Source: Thermoplasmata archaeon
Lineage (GTDB): Archaea; Thermoplasmatota; Thermoplasmata; Lutacidiplasmatales; UBA184
Assembly: GCA_021826685.1 (NCBI GenBank)
Contig: JAKAYT010000009.1
Span: forward strand, 1 to 48,036
Reading direction: 5' to 3'
DNA: 48,036 nucleotides
Positions within the stretch are counted from its first letter, which is position 1. The number at the start of each line of letters is the position of its first letter. The notes under the pieces are model-generated. The model saw only the letters and a program-made list of their open reading frames with translations. It had not been told where the DNA came from and made no database searches. The position numbers and the translations under genes are program-made. This document shows, piece after piece, positions 18,837 through 31,740 of this stretch.

Positions 18837-19763
18837 CTACAGGATCGCACCGATGCCGACGCGCAGCAGCACGACGTTCGCGATTACGGCGGCAACGACG
18901 CCGAGAAGGTAGGGCCCGGAATAGATGAACCCCTTGCGCGCCACCGCGGGGCCGGCCTCCTTCCAGAGCGGTAGCGTCAGCACGAGGAACCCCCCCGCGA
19001 GGGCGAGGAGCACGACCAGGACCGGCCAGGCGAGCGCCCCCGTGAACCCTATTGCGAGGGTCGCGGGAAGGAGGAGCGCCGCGGATACGACCACGATCTT
19101 GCCGGAGTAGGCCGCGTCCTTCATGTCGGGTAGCATCGGAAGCCCCGCTCGGTCGTAGTCGTCCTTGAGGAGAAGGGCGAGGCTCCAGAAGTGCGGCGGG
19201 GTCCAGAGGAACACCAGGAGGGCGAACGCGAGCACGCCCGGGGTCCAGGCCCCGACGGCGGCCGCTGCTCCGGCGAGCGCGGGAGCGCTCCCGGCAAATC
19301 CTCCGATAACGATATTCCAGCTCGAACGGCGCTTCAGCCAGATCGTGTAGACCACCACGTAGGTGAGCCCACCGAGGAAGATCGAGAACCCGGTGAGGAG
19401 GTTGAGGAAGATCGATGCGGCCGCGATCCCGCCGCCGAGCAGGAGGAGGCCGACGACGGCGACCGACGCGCTCGAGCCGATTCGGGCGGCCGGGAGCGGG
19501 CGGGCCCGGGTGCGCTTCATCTGGGCGTCGACATCGCGGTCGAGGTAGTGGTTCAACATCGCGGATCCGGCACTCGCGGCCGCGCCGCTGACGACCAGCA
19601 CCCCCAGTGCGACCCACGGGATCGGGTGCGGGTTCGCGAGGAAGAAGCCGCCGACCGCGACGAGCACGATCAGCAGAGTGATCCCGGGCTTCGCGAGCGC
19701 GAAGTAGTCGCGGGAAATGCTCGTGGGACGATTCGGATGCGGCTGCGGAATGACCGTCGCCAT
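18837..19763 (-). CDS. ctaB: Protoheme IX farnesyltransferase
   Basis: SRDYFALAKPGITLLIVL, AMLNHYLDRDVDAQMKRTRARPLPA, WTPPHFWSLALLLKDDYDRAGLPMLP. Confidence 0.95.
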   Translation of the reverse strand: MATVIPQPHPNRPTSISRDYFALAKPGITLLIVLVAVGGFFLANPHPIPWVALGVLVVSGAAASAGSAMLNHYLDRDVDAQMKRTRARPLPAARIGSSASVAVVGLLLLGGGIAAASIFLNLLTGFSIFLGGLTYVVVYTIWLKRRSSWNIVIGGFAGSAPALAGAAAAVGAWTPGVLAFALLVFLWTPPHFWSLALLLKDDYDRAGLPMLPDMKDAAYSGKIVVVSAALLLPATLAIGFTGALAWPVLVVLLALAGGFLVLTLPLWKEAGPAVARKGFIYSGPYLLGVVAAVIANVVLLRVGIGAIL

Positions 19764-19802: not shown

Positions 19803-20378
19803 TTAGGCGTGACCGGCGCTCGAAGGAGATCCGGGAGCGTTCACCGTCTCCTTCGAAGGAGCGGGATGCGGGTCCGGAGCCGACGTCCTCCTCGAAGGGG
19901 CCTGGGTCTCTCGCTGGGCCCACTCGTGCCAGCGCCGCGGGATGAATTTCCAGTTCACGATCAGCGCGAGGACGAGGAGGATTCCGAAGAGGATCGTGGC
20001 CACGCCGAAGTGCAGGAGCACGAGGGCGATGTTGAGCTCCGATATCACGACCGCTGCTCCGAGGAGCGCCAGGAGGACGACGATGGCGAACGCCCCGATC
20101 GATAGGCGGACGACCGCGGGGCGACGACGCTCGTAGACCAGGGCGAGAACCAGCAGGACGAGAATCACCAGCGCGAGGAAGAAGGCGGACAAGCGGTGGA
20201 TCCACTCGATGCCCATCGCGCCGGTGAGCGCGGGAAAGAACGTCCCGTCGCAGCTCGGCCAGGTCGAGCACCCGAGTCCCGAACCCGATGCGATCACGTT
20301 GCCGCCGAGGATAATCGTGATCCAGCACATCACGACGGCGGCGAGCGAAGTGTACCGAAACGCGCGATGTCCGTTCAT
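19803..20378 (-). CDS. ctaA: Short heme A synthase (CtaA/COX15-like)
   Basis: GGNVIASGSGLGCSTWPSCDGTFFP, MGIEWIHRLSAFFLA, 4-TM half-size protein next to ctaB and coxI. Confidence 0.85.
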   Translation of the reverse strand: MNGHRAFRYTSLAAVVMCWITIILGGNVIASGSGLGCSTWPSCDGTFFPALTGAMGIEWIHRLSAFFLALVILVLLVLALVYERRRPAVVRLSIGAFAIVVLLALLGAAVVISELNIALVLLHFGVATILFGILLVLALIVNWKFIPRRWHEWAQRETQAPSRRTSAPDPHPAPSKETVNAPGSPSSAGHA

Positions 20379-20396: not shown

Positions 20397-22088
20397 TTAC
20401 GCGCCTCCCTCCGACGAGGGGGGGCTCGCGGTGGGTACCGGGAGGGGCGTCGGCGCGGGCGCCGGAACCGGCGTGGGACCCGTCATCGTGCTCGGCAGCG
20501 GCTCGCCCCACGGGTCGGGGGTTGTTACGGGCTCGCCGTAGTAGTAGCTGTGAACGATGTTGTAGACGAAGAACAACTGACCGAACCCGAAGATGAACGC
20601 CCCGATGGTCGCGAGGAAGTTCAGCGCCTGAAAGTTTCCGATGTAGACGTAGGTGTAGACCCGACGCGGCATCCCTTCGGCGCCGAGGATGAACATCGGG
20701 AAGAGGAGGATGTTGGTCCCCACGTAGGAGAGGATGAAGTGGATGTGGCCCAGACGCTGGTCGTACCAGCGACGCGTGATGACCGGGAAGTAGAAGTAGA
20801 TCCCCGCGAAGATCGCCATCACGGTCCCGCCCAGCAGGATGTAATGGAAGTGCGCGACCACGAAGTACGTGCCGTGGTAGAGGATGTTGACCGGGATCGA
20901 AGCGAGGTAGAGACCCGACAAGCCACCGATGGCGAATCCGGTGAGGAAGGCGAGGGAGAACCACATCGGAAGGGCCATCCAGATCTTACCGCCCCATAAC
21001 GTCGCGACCCAGTTGAAGACCTTCACCGCGCTCGGGACGGCGATCGCAAACGTGGCCAGCATGAAGAAGAACAGGACGTTCGCGGGTTCGCCCGTCACGA
21101 ACATGTGGTGGCCCCACACAGCGAACGAGAGGATCGCGAACGAGGCAAGGGCGATCACCATCGCCGAGTAGCCGTAGATGTCCTTTCTCGCCAGCTTCGG
21201 GATGACGGTGCTGATGATCCCGAACGCCGGGATCACCATGATGTAGACCTCGGGATGCGCAAAGAACCACCATAGGTTCTGATAGAGGAGGGCCCCGCCG
21301 AGCGGGGTTCCGTTGATGGCGGCGAAGATATGGGTGCCGAACTCGAGGTCGCTGAGCACGAAGGTGAGCGCGATCGACAGGCTCGGGAGGGCGAAGATGA
21401 GCAGGATCGAGTTGATCAGCACCGCCCAGACCATCAGGGGCATGTTCCAGTACTTCACCCCCGGAGCGCGGTGCTTGATGATCGTCACGACGAAATTGAT
21501 CGCGCCGAGCATCGAGCTGATCGTCAGGATGTGCAGGCCCAGGATCCACATCTGGATACCGTAGGGATCCGCCGGGTTGGCCTGCAGGGATAGGGGGATG
21601 TACCCGGTCCAGCCGGCCCAGGCGTTCGAGAGGATCAGGATGACCGCGGCCGGCGGGAGCAGCCAGAAGGCGATGGCGTTGATCTTCGGCATCGCCATCT
21701 CGCGCGAGCCGATCATCGAGGGAATGAGCAAGTTGCCGAACCCGGCGAGGGCCGGCATGATGAACAGGAAAATCATGATCGTCCCGTGCATCGTGAACAG
21801 CGTGCTGTAGACGTCCGGCGTGATGCCGAGGGTCGTCACCGGGTTGAGGCCGAGTCCTTGGACGAAGCCGAGATCGGTCCGGATGAGGATCGCATAGATC
21901 CCTCCGATGAAGAACATCACGATCCCGAACGCGATGTACATCAGGCCGATGCGCTTGTGATCGGTCGTGAACAGCCACGTCTTCAGCGTTCGGACGACCC
22001 ACTCGCCGTGGTAGCTAAAGAGGTAGACGAGGAACGAGGCAAGCGCGACGATCGAGATGACCGCCACGTAGAACGCCGATAGCCCCAT
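20397..22088 (-). CDS. coxA: Heme-copper oxidase subunit I (A-type)
   Basis: [76 protein letters not shown]; Pro-rich C-terminal tail. Confidence 0.96.
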
Positions 22089-22482: not shown

Positions 22483-22783
22483 AGAGCTTCACCACCTTGT
22501 GGTCCACGCCGCGGTAACGGTCGACCCGGTAGAGGATCCCGGCCATGAACAGGAAGCACAGGAACGCGACGACGCCCGTGCTGATCGCCACGATGGCCCC
22601 GAAGAAGTAGTCGTGGTCCAGCGCGATCCAGACCGCAACGGCATACGCGAGGATGCCGACGGCTGCGGTCCCCGGAAGGAGGAAGGCGGCGAGCAGCCCC
22701 CAGAGCACCCCGGTCGACCATGTCGGGGTCTCGGGAGCCGGTGCGGGGGGAACGAGCGCCGACGTCGAGTTCGCGCTACTCAA
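22475..22783 (-). CDS. Orphan 2-TM membrane protein in respiratory operon
   Basis: 102 aa, overlaps cytochrome b ORF by 8 nt. Confidence 0.75.
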   Translation of the reverse strand: MSSANSTSALVPPAPAPETPTWSTGVLWGLLAAFLLPGTAAVGILAYAVAVWIALDHDYFFGAIVAISTGVVAFLCFLFMAGILYRVDRYRGVDHKVVKLFE

Positions 22784-24149
22784 GGGCTCTCACCTCCGCG
22801 GCGTTCGGGGCAGGATGGGCCGGATTCGCGGTCGAGGGAGCGTAAATCCCCGCGTACCCGGCCGAGCGGGACGCCGCGAGGCGTCGCCGGTAGCTCGTCC
22901 GATAGCGCCAGTGGAGGCCCGCGATCACGACCGCGTTCACCAGGAACGTGGGCACGAGCGTCTCATAGATTTGGGGTGGCAGGATCTGCACGCCGGGGGT
23001 GAGCTGGCCCCAAACGCTCAGGATGATCATGACCTCGATCATGCACGTCCCGATGTAGACGAACACCGGGCGATCGCGCGGGTGCGTTCGCTTCGAGCGA
23101 TCGAGGAACGGCAGGAACAGGATGTAGAGCAGAATCACCGTCCCGATGGTGACCGCAATGAGAGGGGTGACCCCTTGGAAGTCAAGGAGCTTGAATAACC
23201 AGAGGAAGTACCAGTCGGGAACGATCGGTGGGATCGGTACCGCGGTGTTGCCGTACCACGTCAATAGGGTCCAGGGCCAGAGGGCCGCTATCGCGAAAAG
23301 AATCCCGAGATACAGGAGGCCCCACTTGATCATGTACCACAAGATGTGGGGCACGAACGGAACGTTCTGCTTGTCCTCCTTCTCCGTGAATCGCCGGCGC
23401 TGGAACGGGTCCGAGGTGGCCGGGGGCGCGATCCCGTGCGACTCGAACAACGCGATGTGGGCGTAGAGCAGGGCACCGAGCAGGAGTGGTAACAGTAAGA
23501 CGTGCGCCCAGAACATCCGGCTCAGCAAGCCTTGCGGAGTGCCGTTGCCGAGGAGGAAGGGAGCGATCAGTGCTCCCGCGTTGAACACAATCCCACCCGG
23601 GAGGGGAATCTGGAGACTGATCGCGAGGTTGATCCCGACGTCGGTCGCGTTGTAGCTGAGCACGTTGTAGGGCAAGAGGTAGCCCGTGAACCCCATCCCG
23701 AGGGTGACGACGAGCAGGAGCGCCCCGACCATCCACGAGAACTCTCGGGGCTTCTTGTAGACGCCGAGGTAGTAGCCGCGGTAGAAGTGGACGAGCAGGA
23801 GAAAGATCATCGCGTACGCACCGTAGAGGTGCGTCGTGATGAGCAGCGTTCCCATCGGGACGCTGTGCATGATGTAGTAGGTCGAGCACCAGGCCGCCGG
23901 GGCGATTCCCGTACCCGAGCCGCAGGCCGTGGTCGTGATCGAGACGCTCGGCTCGTAGTAGAGGAGCAGCAGCATCCCGGACATGATCTGATAGATGAAA
24001 GCCACCGCGACGAAGGCGCCCGTCCAGTAGCTCGGCTTGAACGTGAACTCGGGCTGGGGCCGCAGCGCCCACTTGCGCATGCCGGTCCGGTCCTCGACGA
24101 ACCCCCAGATCTTGTTGAGGGAACGGTTGTACCATCCCGAGAACGACAC
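22776..24149 (-). CDS. Cytochrome b of bc/b6f-type complex (full length)
   Basis: THLYGAYAMIFLLLVHFYRG and AHVLLLPLLLGALLYAHIALF bis-His helices, GFTGYLLPYN, PDWYFLWLFKLLD. Confidence 0.94.
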   Translation of the reverse strand: MSFSGWYNRSLNKIWGFVEDRTGMRKWALRPQPEFTFKPSYWTGAFVAVAFIYQIMSGMLLLLYYEPSVSITTTACGSGTGIAPAAWCSTYYIMHSVPMGTLLITTHLYGAYAMIFLLLVHFYRGYYLGVYKKPREFSWMVGALLLVVTLGMGFTGYLLPYNVLSYNATDVGINLAISLQIPLPGGIVFNAGALIAPFLLGNGTPQGLLSRMFWAHVLLLPLLLGALLYAHIALFESHGIAPPATSDPFQRRRFTEKEDKQNVPFVPHILWYMIKWGLLYLGILFAIAALWPWTLLTWYGNTAVPIPPIVPDWYFLWLFKLLDFQGVTPLIAVTIGTVILLYILFLPFLDRSKRTHPRDRPVFVYIGTCMIEVMIILSVWGQLTPGVQILPPQIYETLVPTFLVNAVVIAGLHWRYRTSYRRRLAASRSAGYAGIYAPSTANPAHPAPNAAEVRALE

Positions 24150-24162
24150 CGATCCTTCCCTC

Positions 24163-24990
24163 CTAGGTGGGGAACGTGCACGCCGTCGGGCCCTGACCGA
24201 GGTTCGTCAGCGAGGTGGTCGTGCCCACACCGGCGTCGCCCAGCAGCGTGCTCGTGTGGCCCTTGACCACGGGGCTTGACGGGGTCATCCCGGTGGCCCA
24301 GATCGTCCCGTCGATGACCTTCAGGATGACCTGCGGCAGTGGCAGGATCGCCGGCCCGGTCAGGTTGTGCGCCTGGTCCGCTGCGTTGTAGGTCGATCCG
24401 TGGCACGAACAGTGGATGAAGAAGTCGAGGATTCCTTGGGCGGTCGTGAAGGTCTTGCCCGGGCATGTCCCGGGGGGGTAGTATCGGATCAACGGCGCGA
24501 CGCAGCCTAGATGCTGGCAGATCGCGCTGTAGGCGACGATGAGGCCCGACCCGTCTTCGTTGTCGCCGATCCCGTAGGGGACTTTGGTGATCCCCTGGCT
24601 GTTCCCCGCGAGGTTCAGCAGGAAGTTCGGCTCGTCGACGAGCGGATAGGTGAACGTGAGCACCGTCGAGGTGCTGATGCTGTACTGGCTGTTCACTTGG
24701 GCGACGGTCAGCGGCTTCCCATTGGTGTCGAGCAACTGGGTCGTCGGGTAGCTCTTGAGGCCCACGGACGGCGGCTGGAGGTACTGGAGAGCGCCGCCGA
24801 CGAGTCCTCCTCCGGCGGCTCCGATCACGCCCGCGATCGCGAGAAGTTTGAGGACATTGCGCTTCGTCTCATCAACCTCCTCGGCACCTCCCGAGGGAGC
24901 GATCGCGCGAACCTGTCCCACCGGAGCGCGCCACGTCGGAGTTGCGGAACCCGTGAAGGGGCAATCGGTCGAGCACGTGGTCTCGCTCAC
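24163..24990 (-). CDS. Rieske 2Fe-2S protein
   Basis: CQHLGC ... CSCHGSTYN motifs; N-terminal TKRNVLKLLAIAGVIGAAGGGLVGG signal/anchor. GTG start. Confidence 0.92.
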   Translation of the reverse strand: MSETTCSTDCPFTGSATPTWRAPVGQVRAIAPSGGAEEVDETKRNVLKLLAIAGVIGAAGGGLVGGALQYLQPPSVGLKSYPTTQLLDTNGKPLTVAQVNSQYSISTSTVLTFTYPLVDEPNFLLNLAGNSQGITKVPYGIGDNEDGSGLIVAYSAICQHLGCVAPLIRYYPPGTCPGKTFTTAQGILDFFIHCSCHGSTYNAADQAHNLTGPAILPLPQVILKVIDGTIWATGMTPSSPVVKGHTSTLLGDAGVGTTTSLTNLGQGPTACTFPT

Positions 24991-25575: not shown

Positions 25576-26406
25576 TCACCCCGCCTGAGCGGTCGGGCCG
25601 GCTCGGGTCACGTCGCGCCGCCGCTCGAATCGGACGGCGAAGTACGCACCGCCGAAGTACAGGCCCATCATCGGGATCGCGATCAGCAACATCGTAATCC
25701 CGGAGTTGTCCGGCGTGATGACCATCCCGAACACGAGCGTGCCGATCACGGCGGCCCGCCAGTGCTTCATCCACGCTTTCGCGGGGACGATGCCGAGTCG
25801 CGTGAGCCCGTAGATGAACACCGGTAGCTCGCAGACGATCCCGAAGGCGAGCGAGTACAGGAGGGTGAACGTGACGAAGTCCTGGACCCCCATCACGGGG
25901 GCGATTCCGAGCGCCCCCACGTACTTGAACAGGATCAGATAGGTGAAGGGCGTGAGCCACAGCAATCCCGCGATCGTTCCCACGGCAAACAAGACGGACG
26001 CCGGGAGCGCAATGTTCCGGATGAGTTGGCGCTCGTTGTGACGCAGCGCCGGCGCGAGGAAGGCTCCGAGCTCGTGAACGATCCAGGGCATCCCGAGGAT
26101 GACCGTAAGCAGGAGACCGATCTCGAGTTCCACCATCACCGAGTCGCCAACCCCGATGTTCAGAAGCTGGACCCCGGCCGGTAGCATGTAGTGCTGCAGC
26201 AGGCCGAAGACCTGCGCGGTGACGTTGTAGAACAGATTCGGGTACGGAACCGGGACGGGGAACGTGACGGCTCCGAGCGAAACGGGGATGAGCTGGACGT
26301 TGAACACCAGCATGAATCCGAACAGAGCGCCCAACACGATCGCGACGCGGAAGAGGCGGCGCCGGGCCTCGGTTAGAACCGCGATGATCCGAGCGAATTC
26401 GCCCAT
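25576..26406 (-). CDS. tatC: Sec-independent translocase TatC
   Basis: Six TMs, FLAPALRHNERQLI, FTYLILFKYVGA, FGIVCELPVFIYGLTRLGIV, ITPDNSGITMLLIAIPMMGLYFGGAYFA. Confidence 0.93.
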   Translation of the reverse strand: MGEFARIIAVLTEARRRLFRVAIVLGALFGFMLVFNVQLIPVSLGAVTFPVPVPYPNLFYNVTAQVFGLLQHYMLPAGVQLLNIGVGDSVMVELEIGLLLTVILGMPWIVHELGAFLAPALRHNERQLIRNIALPASVLFAVGTIAGLLWLTPFTYLILFKYVGALGIAPVMGVQDFVTFTLLYSLAFGIVCELPVFIYGLTRLGIVPAKAWMKHWRAAVIGTLVFGMVITPDNSGITMLLIAIPMMGLYFGGAYFAVRFERRRDVTRAGPTAQAG

Positions 26407-26927: not shown

Positions 26928-27965
26928 CTAGGCGGCCTCGACCAGCACGGTCTCGTGGCCGTTCGCGACCGCTCGATCGATTCCGACCTCGGCGAGCAAG
27001 CTCAGAGCCGCCGCCGCTCGCTGCAGCACGACCATCGAGGCGGAGACTCCGTTCTTGCGTGCCGCCCCCTTCAAGTGGAGACGGATCGAGGCGGCGGACG
27101 TCCAGAGCTCTTCGGCCGAGCCGTAGACCGCGCACGAATGCTCCAGGCTCGGATGCATGAGGGCATCCACGACCTCTTTGAGGGAAGTCTTGACGAGGGG
27201 CAACAGCTCGGTGAGCGCCTCGGCCCCCTCGAGCTTTCCGGGCTCTTCGTTGAGGATGACCAAGGTCTCCCCTAGGAGGGTCGCGAGTTCCCCGAGGGCG
27301 TGGACCACTACGCGCCACTCCAAGAGCTGACGCGGGTCGGGCGAGCCGATCCGACGCGCGAGCGACCAATCGCGGCTCGCGAGGAACAGCTGGCGGACCA
27401 GGAGCGCGAGAACTTTGTTCGCCTCCTCTTTGAGCGTGGGGATGCGACGCGTATGCGTCCGTCGCCGGACGAGGTCCTCCGTCTCCTCGACGAAGGCGAT
27501 GAGGATCATCTTCATCCGCTGGACGAGTTGCGGCAGCTCGTACTTCGACGGGTCGATGAAGTTCTGCAGGAGGATGCGGTTCGGTTCTTGGGCCACCACG
27601 CTCACGCCGAGTAGGCCACGCGCGGTCGCTTGCAGCTCCTCCATGCGATCCGCGGTGAGAGGAAGGTCCGTTCGGATTTCAATCGAGTCGTGCCCGACGC
27701 GATACGCACCTACCACGAGCCGTTCTAGGACCCCCGGGGTATCGAACGAGCGGGCCTGGACCAGATACGGGGTGCCGGCGGTTCCGGCCCCGGGCGTCGG
27801 CGCGGGCTTGAGATACAGGGTTCCGTCATCGTTCTGGTCAAATACGATGAGGTCGCCCGGCCGAAGGTTCATCGCTTCGGCCCATGGCTTGGGCAAGGTT
27901 ACTGCGATCGACGAATGACCGGCCTTCAGAACGCGTCGCTCACGACTCGGTGTGGACCATGCCAT
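26928..27965 (-). CDS. PhoU-domain regulator with N-terminal AbrB/SpoVT-like domain
   Basis: RRVLKAGHSSIAVTLPKPWAEAMNLRPGDLIVF followed by PhoU-like helical repeats. Confidence 0.88.
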   Translation of the reverse strand: MAWSTPSRERRVLKAGHSSIAVTLPKPWAEAMNLRPGDLIVFDQNDDGTLYLKPAPTPGAGTAGTPYLVQARSFDTPGVLERLVVGAYRVGHDSIEIRTDLPLTADRMEELQATARGLLGVSVVAQEPNRILLQNFIDPSKYELPQLVQRMKMILIAFVEETEDLVRRRTHTRRIPTLKEEANKVLALLVRQLFLASRDWSLARRIGSPDPRQLLEWRVVVHALGELATLLGETLVILNEEPGKLEGAEALTELLPLVKTSLKEVVDALMHPSLEHSCAVYGSAEELWTSAASIRLHLKGAARKNGVSASMVVLQRAAAALSLLAEVGIDRAVANGHETVLVEAA

Positions 27966-28086: not shown

Positions 28087-28869
28087 CTACGTGGGGGGCC
28101 GGGGTGGGGGAGAGGGGGGAGTCGGGGGGAGCGGTGCGCCGGAGGAACGGGGTGAGGACGGCTCGGGGTACTCGGGTTCCTCGGGAGGTGCCTCCGGCCG
28201 TTGGTTACGCGGCGCCCAGGCGAAACCGAGCACGACGGCGAGGACCACGAGCCCACCAATCGTCCCGGCGATCACGAAGACGGGCCAGCCCACCGTCTCC
28301 GCAGCACCACCGCCGGTGATGTTGGCCGGGGCCGGGACCCCGAAGCCGATCGCGTTGAACATCCCGGCAGCAAAGTGGCCCGGCTCGGAGCAAACAAACT
28401 CGTACCAACCGGTCGGCGGGGCTTGGAATGTGTACGCCGAGTGCGTCCCGGTACCGTTCTGGTAGAGCACAAAGAGGAACGGGTGGAAGTGACCCCCGTA
28501 GGACACGCCGGTGAAATTGACCGAAGCGGTCGAAGGGATCGCAACCCCCTGTACCGAGAACAGAGAGAAGGTATGGGCGATCGTATCGGTATTGGTGAAC
28601 GTGAGCGTGATGCTCGCGTTCGCCGCGACCTCGTCCGTGCTCTCCGTGAAGTGGAACGGGGCGCTCGCGGTCACGGTAAAGCTCGTTCCGGCCGACGAAG
28701 GGGGAGGAGCGGATTGCTGCGTGGCCGCCGGCACGACGACTCCGTACCAGCCGAACGCGGCCAGGGAAATGATTCCGATGGCGATCACGATGAGGGTCGC
28801 TGCGACCCAGGCGCGGCGGTGGCGATTCGAGGGAATCCGGTGGCGGTCGCTCAAGGTCGGTCGGTCCAC
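28087..28869 (-). CDS. Membrane-anchored cupredoxin (intact type-1 Cu motif)
   Basis: N-terminal TM, HTFSLFS, YEFVCSEPGHFAAGM, C-terminal TM (VFVIAGTIGGLVVLAVVLGFAWAP). Confidence 0.85.
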   Translation of the reverse strand: MDRPTLSDRHRIPSNRHRRAWVAATLIVIAIGIISLAAFGWYGVVVPAATQQSAPPPSSAGTSFTVTASAPFHFTESTDEVAANASITLTFTNTDTIAHTFSLFSVQGVAIPSTASVNFTGVSYGGHFHPFLFVLYQNGTGTHSAYTFQAPPTGWYEFVCSEPGHFAAGMFNAIGFGVPAPANITGGGAAETVGWPVFVIAGTIGGLVVLAVVLGFAWAPRNQRPEAPPEEPEYPEPSSPRSSGAPLPPTPPSPPPRPPT

Positions 28870-28884
28870 GAGCGATTTGATTAA

Positions 28885-28901
28885 GCGGCCTTGGTAAGTA
28901 T
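28885..28901. repeat. 17-bp upstream motif, copy 1
   Basis: gcggccttggtaagtat; 15 nt upstream of GTG start at 28869; identical to 29745-29761. Confidence 0.8.
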
Positions 28902-28952
28902 TCTTCCGGCTCGCGACCCACCCGGCCCTCGCGTCGATCGTTCGTTGGTACG

Positions 28953-29729
28953 TCAGCTCGGGGATCTCGGCGGTGGTCGAGAACCATCGGGAGGAAGCGA
29001 AGCGCTCGCGGTGCTCGTCACGGGAGGTTCCGGGTACCCGAGGCGCTCGGGAGGCATCTGGTGCTCCTCGCCGCGCTGACCGTTGGCGAAGCCGAGGACG
29101 AGGCCCAAGATCACGAGCCCGACAATCGTACCCGCGATCACGTAGACCGGCCAGCTCACCGTCACCGGAGGCCCTCCGCCGGTGAGGTTCGAGGGCGCGG
29201 GGACGCCGAAGCCGATTGCAGAGAACATGCCGGAGGAGAAGTCGCCGGGTTCCGAGGAGACGAACTCATACCAACCACTTGCCGGGGCGGGGAACGAGTA
29301 GGCCGGATGTGTGCCCGTTACATTCTCGTAGAGCACGAAGAGGAAGGGATGGAAGTGGCCCCCGTAGGTCACGCCCGTGTAGTTGACCGTCGCGTCCGAA
29401 GGGATGGCAATCCCTTCCACCGAGAAGAGCGAGAACGTGTGCGGAAGCGAATCGGTATTTGCGAAGGTCAGCGTGATGGTCGCATTCGCGGCGACCTCGT
29501 CGGTGCTCTCCGTGAAATGGAATGGCGCGCTCGCGGTCACGGAGAAGCTCGTTCCCACCGAGGAGGACGCGGGAGCCGAAGGTTGCGTGAGCGCCGGCGC
29601 GGGAGAGCCGTAGCTCCCGAACGCGACCAGCGAGATGATCCCGATCGCGATCAGGACCGTTCCCACCCGTACGTAGTGCGGGCGGCCCGAGCGATCCCAG
29701 TGGCAGGCGGTCAAGGTGGAGGAGCCCAC
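28953..29729 (-). CDS. Cupredoxin paralog with substituted Cu ligands
   Basis: Collinear with 28087-28869 but YEFVSSEPGDFSSGM in place of YEFVCSEPGHFAAGM. Confidence 0.85.
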   Translation of the reverse strand: MGSSTLTACHWDRSGRPHYVRVGTVLIAIGIISLVAFGSYGSPAPALTQPSAPASSSVGTSFSVTASAPFHFTESTDEVAANATITLTFANTDSLPHTFSLFSVEGIAIPSDATVNYTGVTYGGHFHPFLFVLYENVTGTHPAYSFPAPASGWYEFVSSEPGDFSSGMFSAIGFGVPAPSNLTGGGPPVTVSWPVYVIAGTIVGLVILGLVLGFANGQRGEEHQMPPERLGYPEPPVTSTASASLPPDGSRPPPRSPS

Positions 29730-29744
29730 GGAGGGGCCGATTAT

Positions 29745-29761
29745 GCGGCCTTGGTAAGTAT
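29745..29761. repeat. 17-bp upstream motif, copy 2
   Basis: gcggccttggtaagtat; 15 nt upstream of GTG start at 29729. Confidence 0.8.
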
Positions 29762-29863
29762 CGGCTCGAGTCCGGCCGGATTCCTTCGCAGGTTCTGGGG
29801 AGCTCGGGGATACGGTGCGGTTCGTACGAGGCCCATATGTAGGAGCCCCTTAGGATACGGTCC

Positions 29864-30085
29864 GTGGTACGTGCATCGCGCGTTTCGCCGTTCGCGCTCG
29901 CCGGCGCCCTTCCCTGGGCCGCAGCACGAGTTCTCCCAGCGGCGACGAATCTCTCGATGCAGTCCGAGATCATCTGGGTGATCACCGGGATCGCGACGGG
30001 GGGGGCGGTCATCACGTTCGCGTTCCTCGCGTACGCCCTGATCAAGTTCCGAGACCCGGCGACCAAGGGGCGGCGGTATGGTTAG
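29864..30085 (+). CDS. Cytochrome c oxidase subunit II, N-terminal fragment (signal-like region + TM1)
   Basis: SEIIWVITGIATGGAVITFAFLAYALIKFRDPATKGRRYG matches COX2 TM1 and loop; ends 8 nt inside the CuA ORF. Confidence 0.75.
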   Translation: MVRASRVSPFALAGALPWAAARVLPAATNLSMQSEIIWVITGIATGGAVITFAFLAYALIKFRDPATKGRRYG

Positions 30086-30539
30086 TCGCAAGCTCGAGGT
30101 GGCTTGGACGCTCGCGGTCGTTGCGATCCTCGCGGGCATCACCGTGTGGTCGACGTTCGTGCTCTACAAGGTCGACGCCCTTCCATCGGATCCCGCAGAG
30201 TACGTGGTCGTACGGGCCCAGCAGTGGTCCTGGACGTTCTGCTATTCGAACCAGACCTGCTACACCTCGAACTTCGACGCCACGACGAACACCGTCTCCG
30301 GCGGAGAGTTATGGGTCTTACCGGGGACGGTCGTGCAGCTGAACGTCACGAGCCTTGATGTCGACCACTCGCTCTACATCCCCGGCCTCGGCGTGCAGAC
30401 CAACGCTCTCCCGGGCCGCACCAACCGCGTCGCCTTCCAGATCCCGAACGTGACGCCTGGGACGACCTACGAGATCTTCTGTACGGAGTTCTGCGGACAG
30501 GGCCACGCTACGATGCGCTCGTTCGTCGACGTACTCTAA
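30078..30539 (+). CDS. coxB: Cytochrome c oxidase subunit II, TM2 + CuA domain
   Basis: LEVAWTLAVVAILAGITVWS, AQQWSWTF, DVDHSLYIPGLG, FCTEFCGQGHATM (CuA ligands). Confidence 0.92.
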   Translation: MVSRKLEVAWTLAVVAILAGITVWSTFVLYKVDALPSDPAEYVVVRAQQWSWTFCYSNQTCYTSNFDATTNTVSGGELWVLPGTVVQLNVTSLDVDHSLYIPGLGVQTNALPGRTNRVAFQIPNVTPGTTYEIFCTEFCGQGHATMRSFVDVL

Positions 30540-30681
30540 GAACCGCCGCGCGGCCTCGTTCGTAGGCGGCTCGAACGTGTTCCCGCTCGCCTCCCCTTCC
30601 GGAACACGGCGGGAGGTGGCGGGACTAGCGACCGACCGTAGGATCCATCCGGCCGCCCCGCCTGCGGACAGGGCGAATCGT

Positions 30682-31740
30682 TCAGTAGTGACCGCCCTCG
30701 GGGGGCGCGCCGCCGGCGGGCGGCTTCGGGAATCGGCCAGTATAGGAGACGACGAACGAGAGCACTACGCCGACCCCGACGATGCCTAATGCCACGGCCA
30801 GCACCCACGCATACACGATCGTGGTGGAGACCGCCGAGGGGGGCGGGGGCGCAACGCCGACGTACAAGTAGCCGTACATGCCCGACGCGAAATGACCGGG
30901 CTCCTCGCAGATGTACATGTACACGCCCGGTCCGTCCATCAGAAACGATCCCGATCCCCCCGACGGTGTCACCGTGATGTTTGCGAGCGCGGGGTGGGCC
31001 TCAAAGTAGGCCGTGAAGTTCGTCGGCGTGATGTTGACGCCCGCCTGGGGAACCAAGGACCATGTATGCTCGAGAGAGCCCAGGTTCGTGAGCGTGATCG
31101 TGACGTTGATGGGGAAGTGGATCCCGGTGGTGTTGATCTCGAGCACGTCGGGCACGAAGCTCAGCGCGTTCGTCGTGTTGTCCGAGAGCGTCGCGTTCCC
31201 TCCGATCGTCGGTATCACCGACAGCGTTCCGTGCATCCCTGCCTGAAACTGGTAGGCGACAACGCTGAGGTATTCGAACGTCATGGAGTAGGTGGTCAGA
31301 GGGACGTCGTATGTGACCGAAGCGGTCCCGCCCGGAGCCACGGACTCGTTGATCGCCGACCCGTTCTCGCGGAGGTAGGCGTTCAGCTGGTCGGGCGTGA
31401 GCGAGGGGCTCAGCGTCACGTTCGCCTGCCGAAGCAGCGTGAAGGTATGCGTGTAGTTCCCCACGTTCTGAAGGTCGAACGTGACGTTGCTGCCCGCGTC
31501 CACCGAAATCGTGTTGGGAACGAATGCCGGCGCATCGGTCATTCTGACGAGCACCGTGGATGGGGCCGGCGCGGAAGCCGGCGTCGTGTGTGCGACCCCG
31601 ACCGGGTCGCCCACCTCCATCGACAGGGGTAGGGCGATCGGCGTGACGAGCGTAACGGTCAGCAGCAGCCCGCCGGCCACGAGCAACGCGAGGGAGACCC
31701 GGGCCAGCCGGGAGGTATTCCACCGTCTTCGCGGTCTCAC
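30682..31740 (-). CDS. Membrane-anchored protein with two cupredoxin domains (first degenerate, second intact)
   Basis: Domain 1 NYTHTFTLL...MTFEYLSVVAYQFQAGMHGTL; domain 2 LEHTWSLV...YMYICEEPGHFASGMYGYLYVG; terminal TMs. GTG start at 31740 chosen because the frame upstream overlaps the next gene. Confidence 0.85.
   Translation of the reverse strand: MRPRRRWNTSRLARVSLALLVAGGLLLTVTLVTPIALPLSMEVGDPVGVAHTTPASAPAPSTVLVRMTDAPAFVPNTISVDAGSNVTFDLQNVGNYTHTFTLLRQANVTLSPSLTPDQLNAYLRENGSAINESVAPGGTASVTYDVPLTTYSMTFEYLSVVAYQFQAGMHGTLSVIPTIGGNATLSDNTTNALSFVPDVLEINTTGIHFPINVTITLTNLGSLEHTWSLVPQAGVNITPTNFTAYFEAHPALANITVTPSGGSGSFLMDGPGVYMYICEEPGHFASGMYGYLYVGVAPPPPSAVSTTIVYAWVLAVALGIVGVGVVLSFVVSYTGRFPKPPAGGAPPEGGHY

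Follow-up and report, generated by a model that had tools for sequence, protein, structure and literature searches.

A conserved cupredoxin lobe without copper ligands, fused to a blue copper lobe beside the terminal oxidase genes of an uncultured Thermoplasmata archaeon

The window analyzed here, a DNA stretch of 48,036 nucleotides, is one contig (JAKAYT010000009.1) of a 1.39 Mb genome (90% complete) from an uncultured acidophilic Thermoplasmata archaeon, consistent with Lutacidiplasmatales. Within a cluster of respiratory genes it carries three cupredoxin loci, here called A, B and C, which encode four cupredoxin domains; these numbers, and the motifs at their positions, agree with the initial annotation of this DNA. 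The three genes and the two lobes of C (residue numbers of C follow P0003 numbering) are:

28087..28869, minus strand: gene A, a blue copper protein with one intact lobe, anchored in the membrane at both its N- and its C-terminus.
28953..29729, minus strand: gene B, a tandem copy of A in which the ligand Cys is changed to Ser (29256-29258) and the second ligand His (His2) to Asp (29241-29243).
30682..31740, minus strand: gene C, a two-lobed, doubly membrane-anchored cupredoxin protein with a GTG start at 31740 and orthologs in 42 genomes.
31204..31563, minus strand: N-lobe of C, a predicted cupredoxin fold without Cys and His2, with His117 (31447-31449), Ser178 (31264-31266), Gln183 (31249-31251) and Met188 (31234-31236).
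30850..31203, minus strand: C-lobe of C, an intact type-1 copper lobe with His244, Cys297, His302 and Met307.

Two of the four domains are intact. Gene A (motifs HTFSLF...FVCSEPGHFAAGM) has the complete type-1 copper ligand set and passes the Pfam Copper-bind model PF00127 (23.1 bits versus a cut-off of 21.2), and C matches the same model at its C-lobe (HTWSLV...YICEEPGHFASGM; 33 bits versus 21.2). Ligand inspection and scores above the cut-off confirmed the Cys-His-Met type-1 sets that had been annotated in these two domains. The other two domains have lost ligands. In B (HTFSLF...FVSSEPGDFSSGM) the ligand positions read His-Ser-Asp, Cys and the second His are gone, and the Pfam scan gave no match to PF00127; for the N-lobe of C (HTFTLL...FEYLSVVAYQFQAGM) the only Pfam match was Cupredoxin_1, below its cut-off (19.3 versus 27), with no passing PF00127. 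On the basis of hydropathy, A, B and C each carry a membrane segment at the N-terminus and another at the C-terminus, as had been proposed. In profile-profile comparison, the N-lobe matched both the C-lobe (E 5e-25) and the A family (E 3e-26), and its AlphaFold2 (AF2) model matched auracyanin (E 3e-7, probability 1.00), azurin and further cupredoxins in PDB. As modelled, the N-lobe has a cupredoxin fold.

The orthologs of C that we collected came from 42 genomes representing five genera of one family (the window's genus and four more genera). The same-genus set comprised 29 proteins, one of them truncated, which left 28 in which the C-lobe ligands could be scored. Within this genus, His117, Ser178, Gln183 and Met188 were found in all 29 N-lobes, and His244, Cys297, His302 and Met307 in all 28 C-lobes. 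Across the family, the N-lobe His, Ser and Gln were each present in 42 of 42 proteins and the Met in 38 of 42 (Leu in two, Phe in two; the replacements fall in three sister genera), and the C-lobe had His-Cys-His-Met in 41 of 41. Thus, the initial statement that both degenerate domains keep the first His and the Met and have lost Cys and His2 holds for the losses in B and in the N-lobe, whereas the N-lobe Met is not universal. The fused pairing of a ligand-less ('dead') lobe with an intact ('live') one is conserved in the ortholog alignment: it was found in 42 of 42 genomes in which C could be read, always with the dead lobe first and the live lobe second, and none of these genomes has an ortholog in which both lobes keep all ligands. 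Per-column entropy was computed on 27 aligned same-genus C proteins over contiguous segments of 15 residues (103 in the N-lobe). The former copper loop was the lowest-entropy segment of the 103 (mean 0.39 bit versus 1.41 for the whole lobe), and the loop that still works in the C-lobe was less conserved (0.66 bit). Pairwise ratios of nonsynonymous to synonymous substitution rates (dN/dS), which are rough values at high divergence, were 0.08-0.44 for the N-lobe and 0.11-0.35 for the C-lobe. The alignments indicate that the emptied N-lobe site is held as His-Ser-Gln under strong purifying selection. Only three His residues (117, 244 and 302) are invariant in C, and the lack of any extra conserved His for a type-2 or type-3 site led us to reject a two-domain copper nitrite reductase (NirK), laccase or multicopper oxidase identity for this protein.

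The second ligand-less domain, B, has a different history. A and B share 65% identity along their full length, and the fixed differences of B from A bring acidic residues (Q107E, T114D and H165D). B is known from three genomes, namely the window, the metagenome-assembled genome (MAG) YP1.bin82 (L064) and G004 (L068), whereas in most relatives A is single and intact. The A-B tandem of YP1.bin82, an independent MAG, carries identical substitutions, and they recur in G004; a sequencing or assembly error behind the Ser and Asp was therefore ruled out. In the cupredoxin domain, dN/dS was 0.06-0.08 for B in the three genomes versus 0.05-0.09 for A. B is under strong purifying selection, and these ratios also rule out a decaying pseudogene. 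In a tree of 96 lobes, whose fine branching is unsure with only 120 columns, the N-lobes formed one clade (100/99), sister to the C-lobes, and the three B proteins formed a clade (100/96) nested inside the A family. According to this tree, loss of the N-lobe copper site is ancestral, a single event that preceded the split of the family's genera, and B is placed as a later tandem duplicate of A that lost its ligands after duplication and independently of the N-lobe. Because the N-lobes are one clade and the B trio is nested in the A family, two independent ligand losses of differing age are indicated, the older in the N-lobe of C and the younger in B. It had been suggested initially that the intact/degenerate pairing is recurrent. 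Such pairing does occur once in tandem and once fused, but the two cases differ in age and origin, and the idea of one conserved module failed, since only three genomes have B, the majority of relatives carrying one intact A. Two identical short elements accompany the tandem pair:

28885..28901, plus strand: 17-bp element upstream of A, identical to the one upstream of B (2 matches versus 0.05 expected).
29745..29761, plus strand: 17-bp element upstream of B, identical to the one upstream of A.

The element was duplicated along with the gene, and it may act as a promoter. Its 12-bp core was also seen upstream of B in G004 (L068) and in both copies in L064, and in no other fetched genome.

On the minus strand, A, B and C follow CtaB, CtaA-like, CoxA, two small membrane proteins, cytochrome b, Rieske, TatA, TatC and an AbrB-domain regulator; coxB, on the plus strand, separates B from C, and a membrane open reading frame (ORF) of 42 amino acids comes before it. 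The annotated neighbors are:

30078..30539, plus strand: coxB, oxidase subunit II with the CuA motif CTEFCGQGHATM (Pfam COX2 46.7 bits versus 22, E 3.5e-12; CoxB E 2.1e-31).
29957..30085, plus strand: 42-amino-acid ORF with a single membrane segment, overlapping the coxB start.
26928..27965, minus strand: AbrB-domain regulator between A and TatC.
25576..26406, minus strand: TatC.
24163..24990, minus strand: Rieske iron-sulfur protein (start approximate).
22776..24149, minus strand: cytochrome b, SoxC/b6-like.
20397..22088, minus strand: CoxA, heme-copper oxidase subunit I (Pfam COX1 E 1e-140).
19803..20378, minus strand: CtaA-like heme A synthase (Pfam COX15-CtaA E 1.7e-16).
18837..19763, minus strand: CtaB, heme O synthase (NCBIfam cyoE_ctaB above cut-off).

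The 42-amino-acid ORF is probably the first helix of subunit II encoded as a separate protein, that is, a split subunit II (29957-30539). The genus-wide order is C-coxB-A-regulator-TatC-TatA-Rieske-cytochrome b-small membrane proteins-CoxA, mostly with a single A and with extensions in sister genera; in the conserved complex III/IV cluster, CtaA and CtaB come after CoxA. C adjoins CuA/CoxB on most contigs, and in a few genomes it lies 7-12 kb away from coxB or on another contig. Both CoxA and C were found in 13 of 13 near-complete genomes of the genus. The AbrB-domain protein is kept between A and TatC across the genus. In sister genera g26-g28 (L134, L135, L136 and L137), another intact cupredoxin takes the position of A, and its loop is shorter (FICRPHYPLGM, for example). 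The window's genome also has a second heme-copper oxidase (L158:2245-5217, G000:C1), a protein of 990 amino acids in which a CoxA-like part is fused to a subunit-II-like domain and CuA ligands are apparently absent; similar ORFs of 800-950 amino acids were observed in several members of the genus.

The relatives are mostly incomplete MAGs, and searches for absent genes are soft. Cytochrome c (PF13442) gave no match in 41 genomes of the genus, whereas control genomes did match, and a published survey reports that all Thermoplasmatota genomes lack cytochrome c and that blue copper proteins are found alongside complex IV (PMC9287336). A search of the window's genome with an A-family profile revealed no cupredoxin outside the locus. 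A genus-wide PF00127 search proved insensitive, as it missed even A and C of the window's own genome, and was dropped as evidence of absence.

In Sulfolobus, sulfocyanin (SoxE) of the SoxM supercomplex passes electrons from a bc1-like complex to the terminal oxidase (PMC3062577). By analogy, the intact lobes, A and the C-lobe, most likely act like sulfocyanin as electron carriers. The initial annotation had proposed an electron relay; it is possible for A and the C-lobe and is restricted to them, because the dead lobes, which lack Cys and His2, cannot pass electrons via type-1 copper. On the basis of gene order and known archaeal respiratory chains, the membrane-anchored blue copper proteins would substitute for cytochrome c, with A and the C-lobe taking electrons from Rieske/cytochrome b and handing them to the CuA of CoxB. 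Further information comes from sister genus g24, in which two genomes (L141:1679-4816 and L143:1092-4220, both on the minus strand) encode, in a single ORF, CoxA joined to an intact, membrane-anchored SoxE-like cupredoxin. These ORFs encode 1046 and 1043 amino acids, match COX1 with E about 1e-129 and include a further part resembling subunit III; no clear C was found in either genome. The fusion supports direct contact of such a domain with the oxidase; gene order and this fusion are the two observations that bear on putative membership in a III-IV supercomplex.

The conservation of the emptied site suggests that the 'dead' lobe has a real job, probably gripping a partner of the respiratory chain, and a docking or structural role of the dead lobes is plausible. 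The residues His-Ser-Gln in the N-lobe, or His-Ser-Asp in B, could form a hydrogen-bonded plug in the place of copper, which would keep the fold rigid and the north-face loop in shape; this loop may have become, or stayed, a docking surface. The dead lobe would then keep the carrier in position by docking on CoxB, on the live lobe or on the Rieske/cytochrome b side. On balance, and with modest confidence, we favor the view that the locus is a complex III/IV cluster in which anchored blue copper carriers replace cytochrome c and the dead lobes serve as docking or structural partners. The observation made initially was real and is confirmed, and the interpretation attached to it is partly supported.

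Several points weigh against this view. In sister genus g24 the oxidase is present but no C could be recognised, and in a few genomes A and C lie 7-12 kb apart or on separate contigs. The AF2 runs used shallow alignments, and the model of the N-lobe is of moderate quality (predicted local distance difference test score, pLDDT, 69), too weak to show any interface, as is that of the whole two-lobe protein (pLDDT 40), which gives no usable domain arrangement or interface. Loop conservation is evidence of constraint and not of docking, and Rieske/cytochrome b as the donor follows from gene order only. A bolder proposal, which we put forward tentatively and consider rather unlikely, is that the emptied His-Ser-Gln site has work of its own to do, in partner recognition or in loading CuA in a lineage without Sco/PCuAC; loss of a copper site would then have created a new conserved function, a step repeated independently in B.

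Among the alternatives, it is improbable, though conceivable, that the dead lobes (the N-lobe and B) are CuA assembly factors, which would bind Cu(I) transiently or bind apo-CoxB and load CuA without the usual Sco or PCuAC. C and B adjoin coxB, both dead lobes retain His and Met within the genus, Sco is missing from the window's genome and exceeds the cut-off in 1 of 41 genus genomes, PCuAC (PF04314) occurs in 0 of 41, and the established CuA chaperone PCuAC is cupredoxin-like in fold (PMC6696091). However, no PCuAC-type His/Met motif could be found, the only conserved potential soft ligands of the N-lobe being one His and one Met, and this Met, Leu or Phe in three sister genera, is dispensable. 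The absence of Sco and PCuAC is also soft, given the incomplete MAGs and a similar family search that missed the genome's own cupredoxins. A direct identity of A, B or C with PCuAC was rejected, as none matches PF04314 and the alignment has no conserved His/Met Cu(I) motif.

We see only a slim chance that His-Ser-Gln(-Met) is a metal site of another kind (for example, type-2-like Cu or Zn) with a redox or regulatory role of its own. Potential donors occupy all ligand positions, three of them invariant in 42 of 42 proteins, and the loop is the best-conserved part of the N-lobe; but Ser and Gln ligate metals weakly, the Met is dispensable, the invariant His residues of C include no further one to complete a site, and B acquired Asp in place of Gln. 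It is similarly doubtful that B competes with A or regulates it, as a copper-less twin which would occupy the same docking site and tune electron flow in its subclade. B has kept the overall sequence and anchors of A and shares the upstream element, and its fixed differences add acidic residues; however, it is found in three genomes only, and by sequence such a regulator is indistinguishable from a structural partner. A neutral relic, kept as a mere spacer or because the live lobe needs it to fold, is similarly unlikely: fused duplicated domains are common among cupredoxins and decay could easily begin with the loss of a redundant metal site, but a spacer would not have its emptied site as the top-conserved stretch or Ser and Gln in every ortholog, dN/dS is low in the N-lobe and in B, and purifying selection on both disfavors decay.

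Archaea without cytochrome c need copper proteins to bridge complex III and CuA, and the question is how these carriers are arranged on the membrane. A strictly conserved metal-free lobe fused to the carrier offers a concrete and testable handle on carrier positioning, with the invariant Ser and Gln as obvious mutation targets. It is also a clean case in which the remains of a metal site are more conserved than the neighboring working site.

Compared with known systems, the proteins resemble sulfocyanin, an archaeal blue copper protein whose partners are a bc1-like complex and a CuA oxidase (PMC3062577), whereas sulfocyanin has a single lobe and no ligand-less one. A scored 14.5 bits against the sulfocyanin model TIGR03094, far under its cut-off of 168.4, and 29.4 bits against the rusticyanin model TIGR03095 (cut-off 146.7); C was likewise under both cut-offs. 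Auracyanin and rusticyanin are the closest solved structures by sequence and have the C-x4-H-x4-M loop in common with the proteins described here, but A and C differ in having two membrane anchors, and C also in having two lobes. AcoP, the cytochrome c oxidase partner of Acidithiobacillus, is likewise a cupredoxin encoded with the respiratory chain; it copurifies with the oxidase and a stabilising effect at acid pH has been proposed (PMC5982212). AcoP binds copper and is redox active, whereas the partner lobe here lacks the Cys and His2 ligands. For Lutacidiplasmatales, a locus has been reported that places complex IV next to complex III and also encodes heme A/O synthesis, Tat, one cupredoxin and six unknown proteins, five of which have membrane segments (PMC9287336). 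It has the same gene content and lacks cytochrome c; the available part of that report mentions the cupredoxin and the unknown membrane proteins and no ligand-less lobe. The locus was thus already known, and the conserved dead lobe is, as far as the open-access literature goes, perhaps undescribed: there we found no earlier account of a respiratory blue copper carrier with a conserved copper-less lobe fused to it, which is weak evidence of absence, and no precedents for ligand-less archaeal cupredoxins. Metal-free cupredoxin folds are used for recognition or structure in ephrins, early nodulin-like proteins and quinol-oxidase subunit II without CuA. Unlike in these proteins, the dead lobe described here is fused to, or in tandem with, a live type-1 lobe, and its emptied site is the top-conserved segment.

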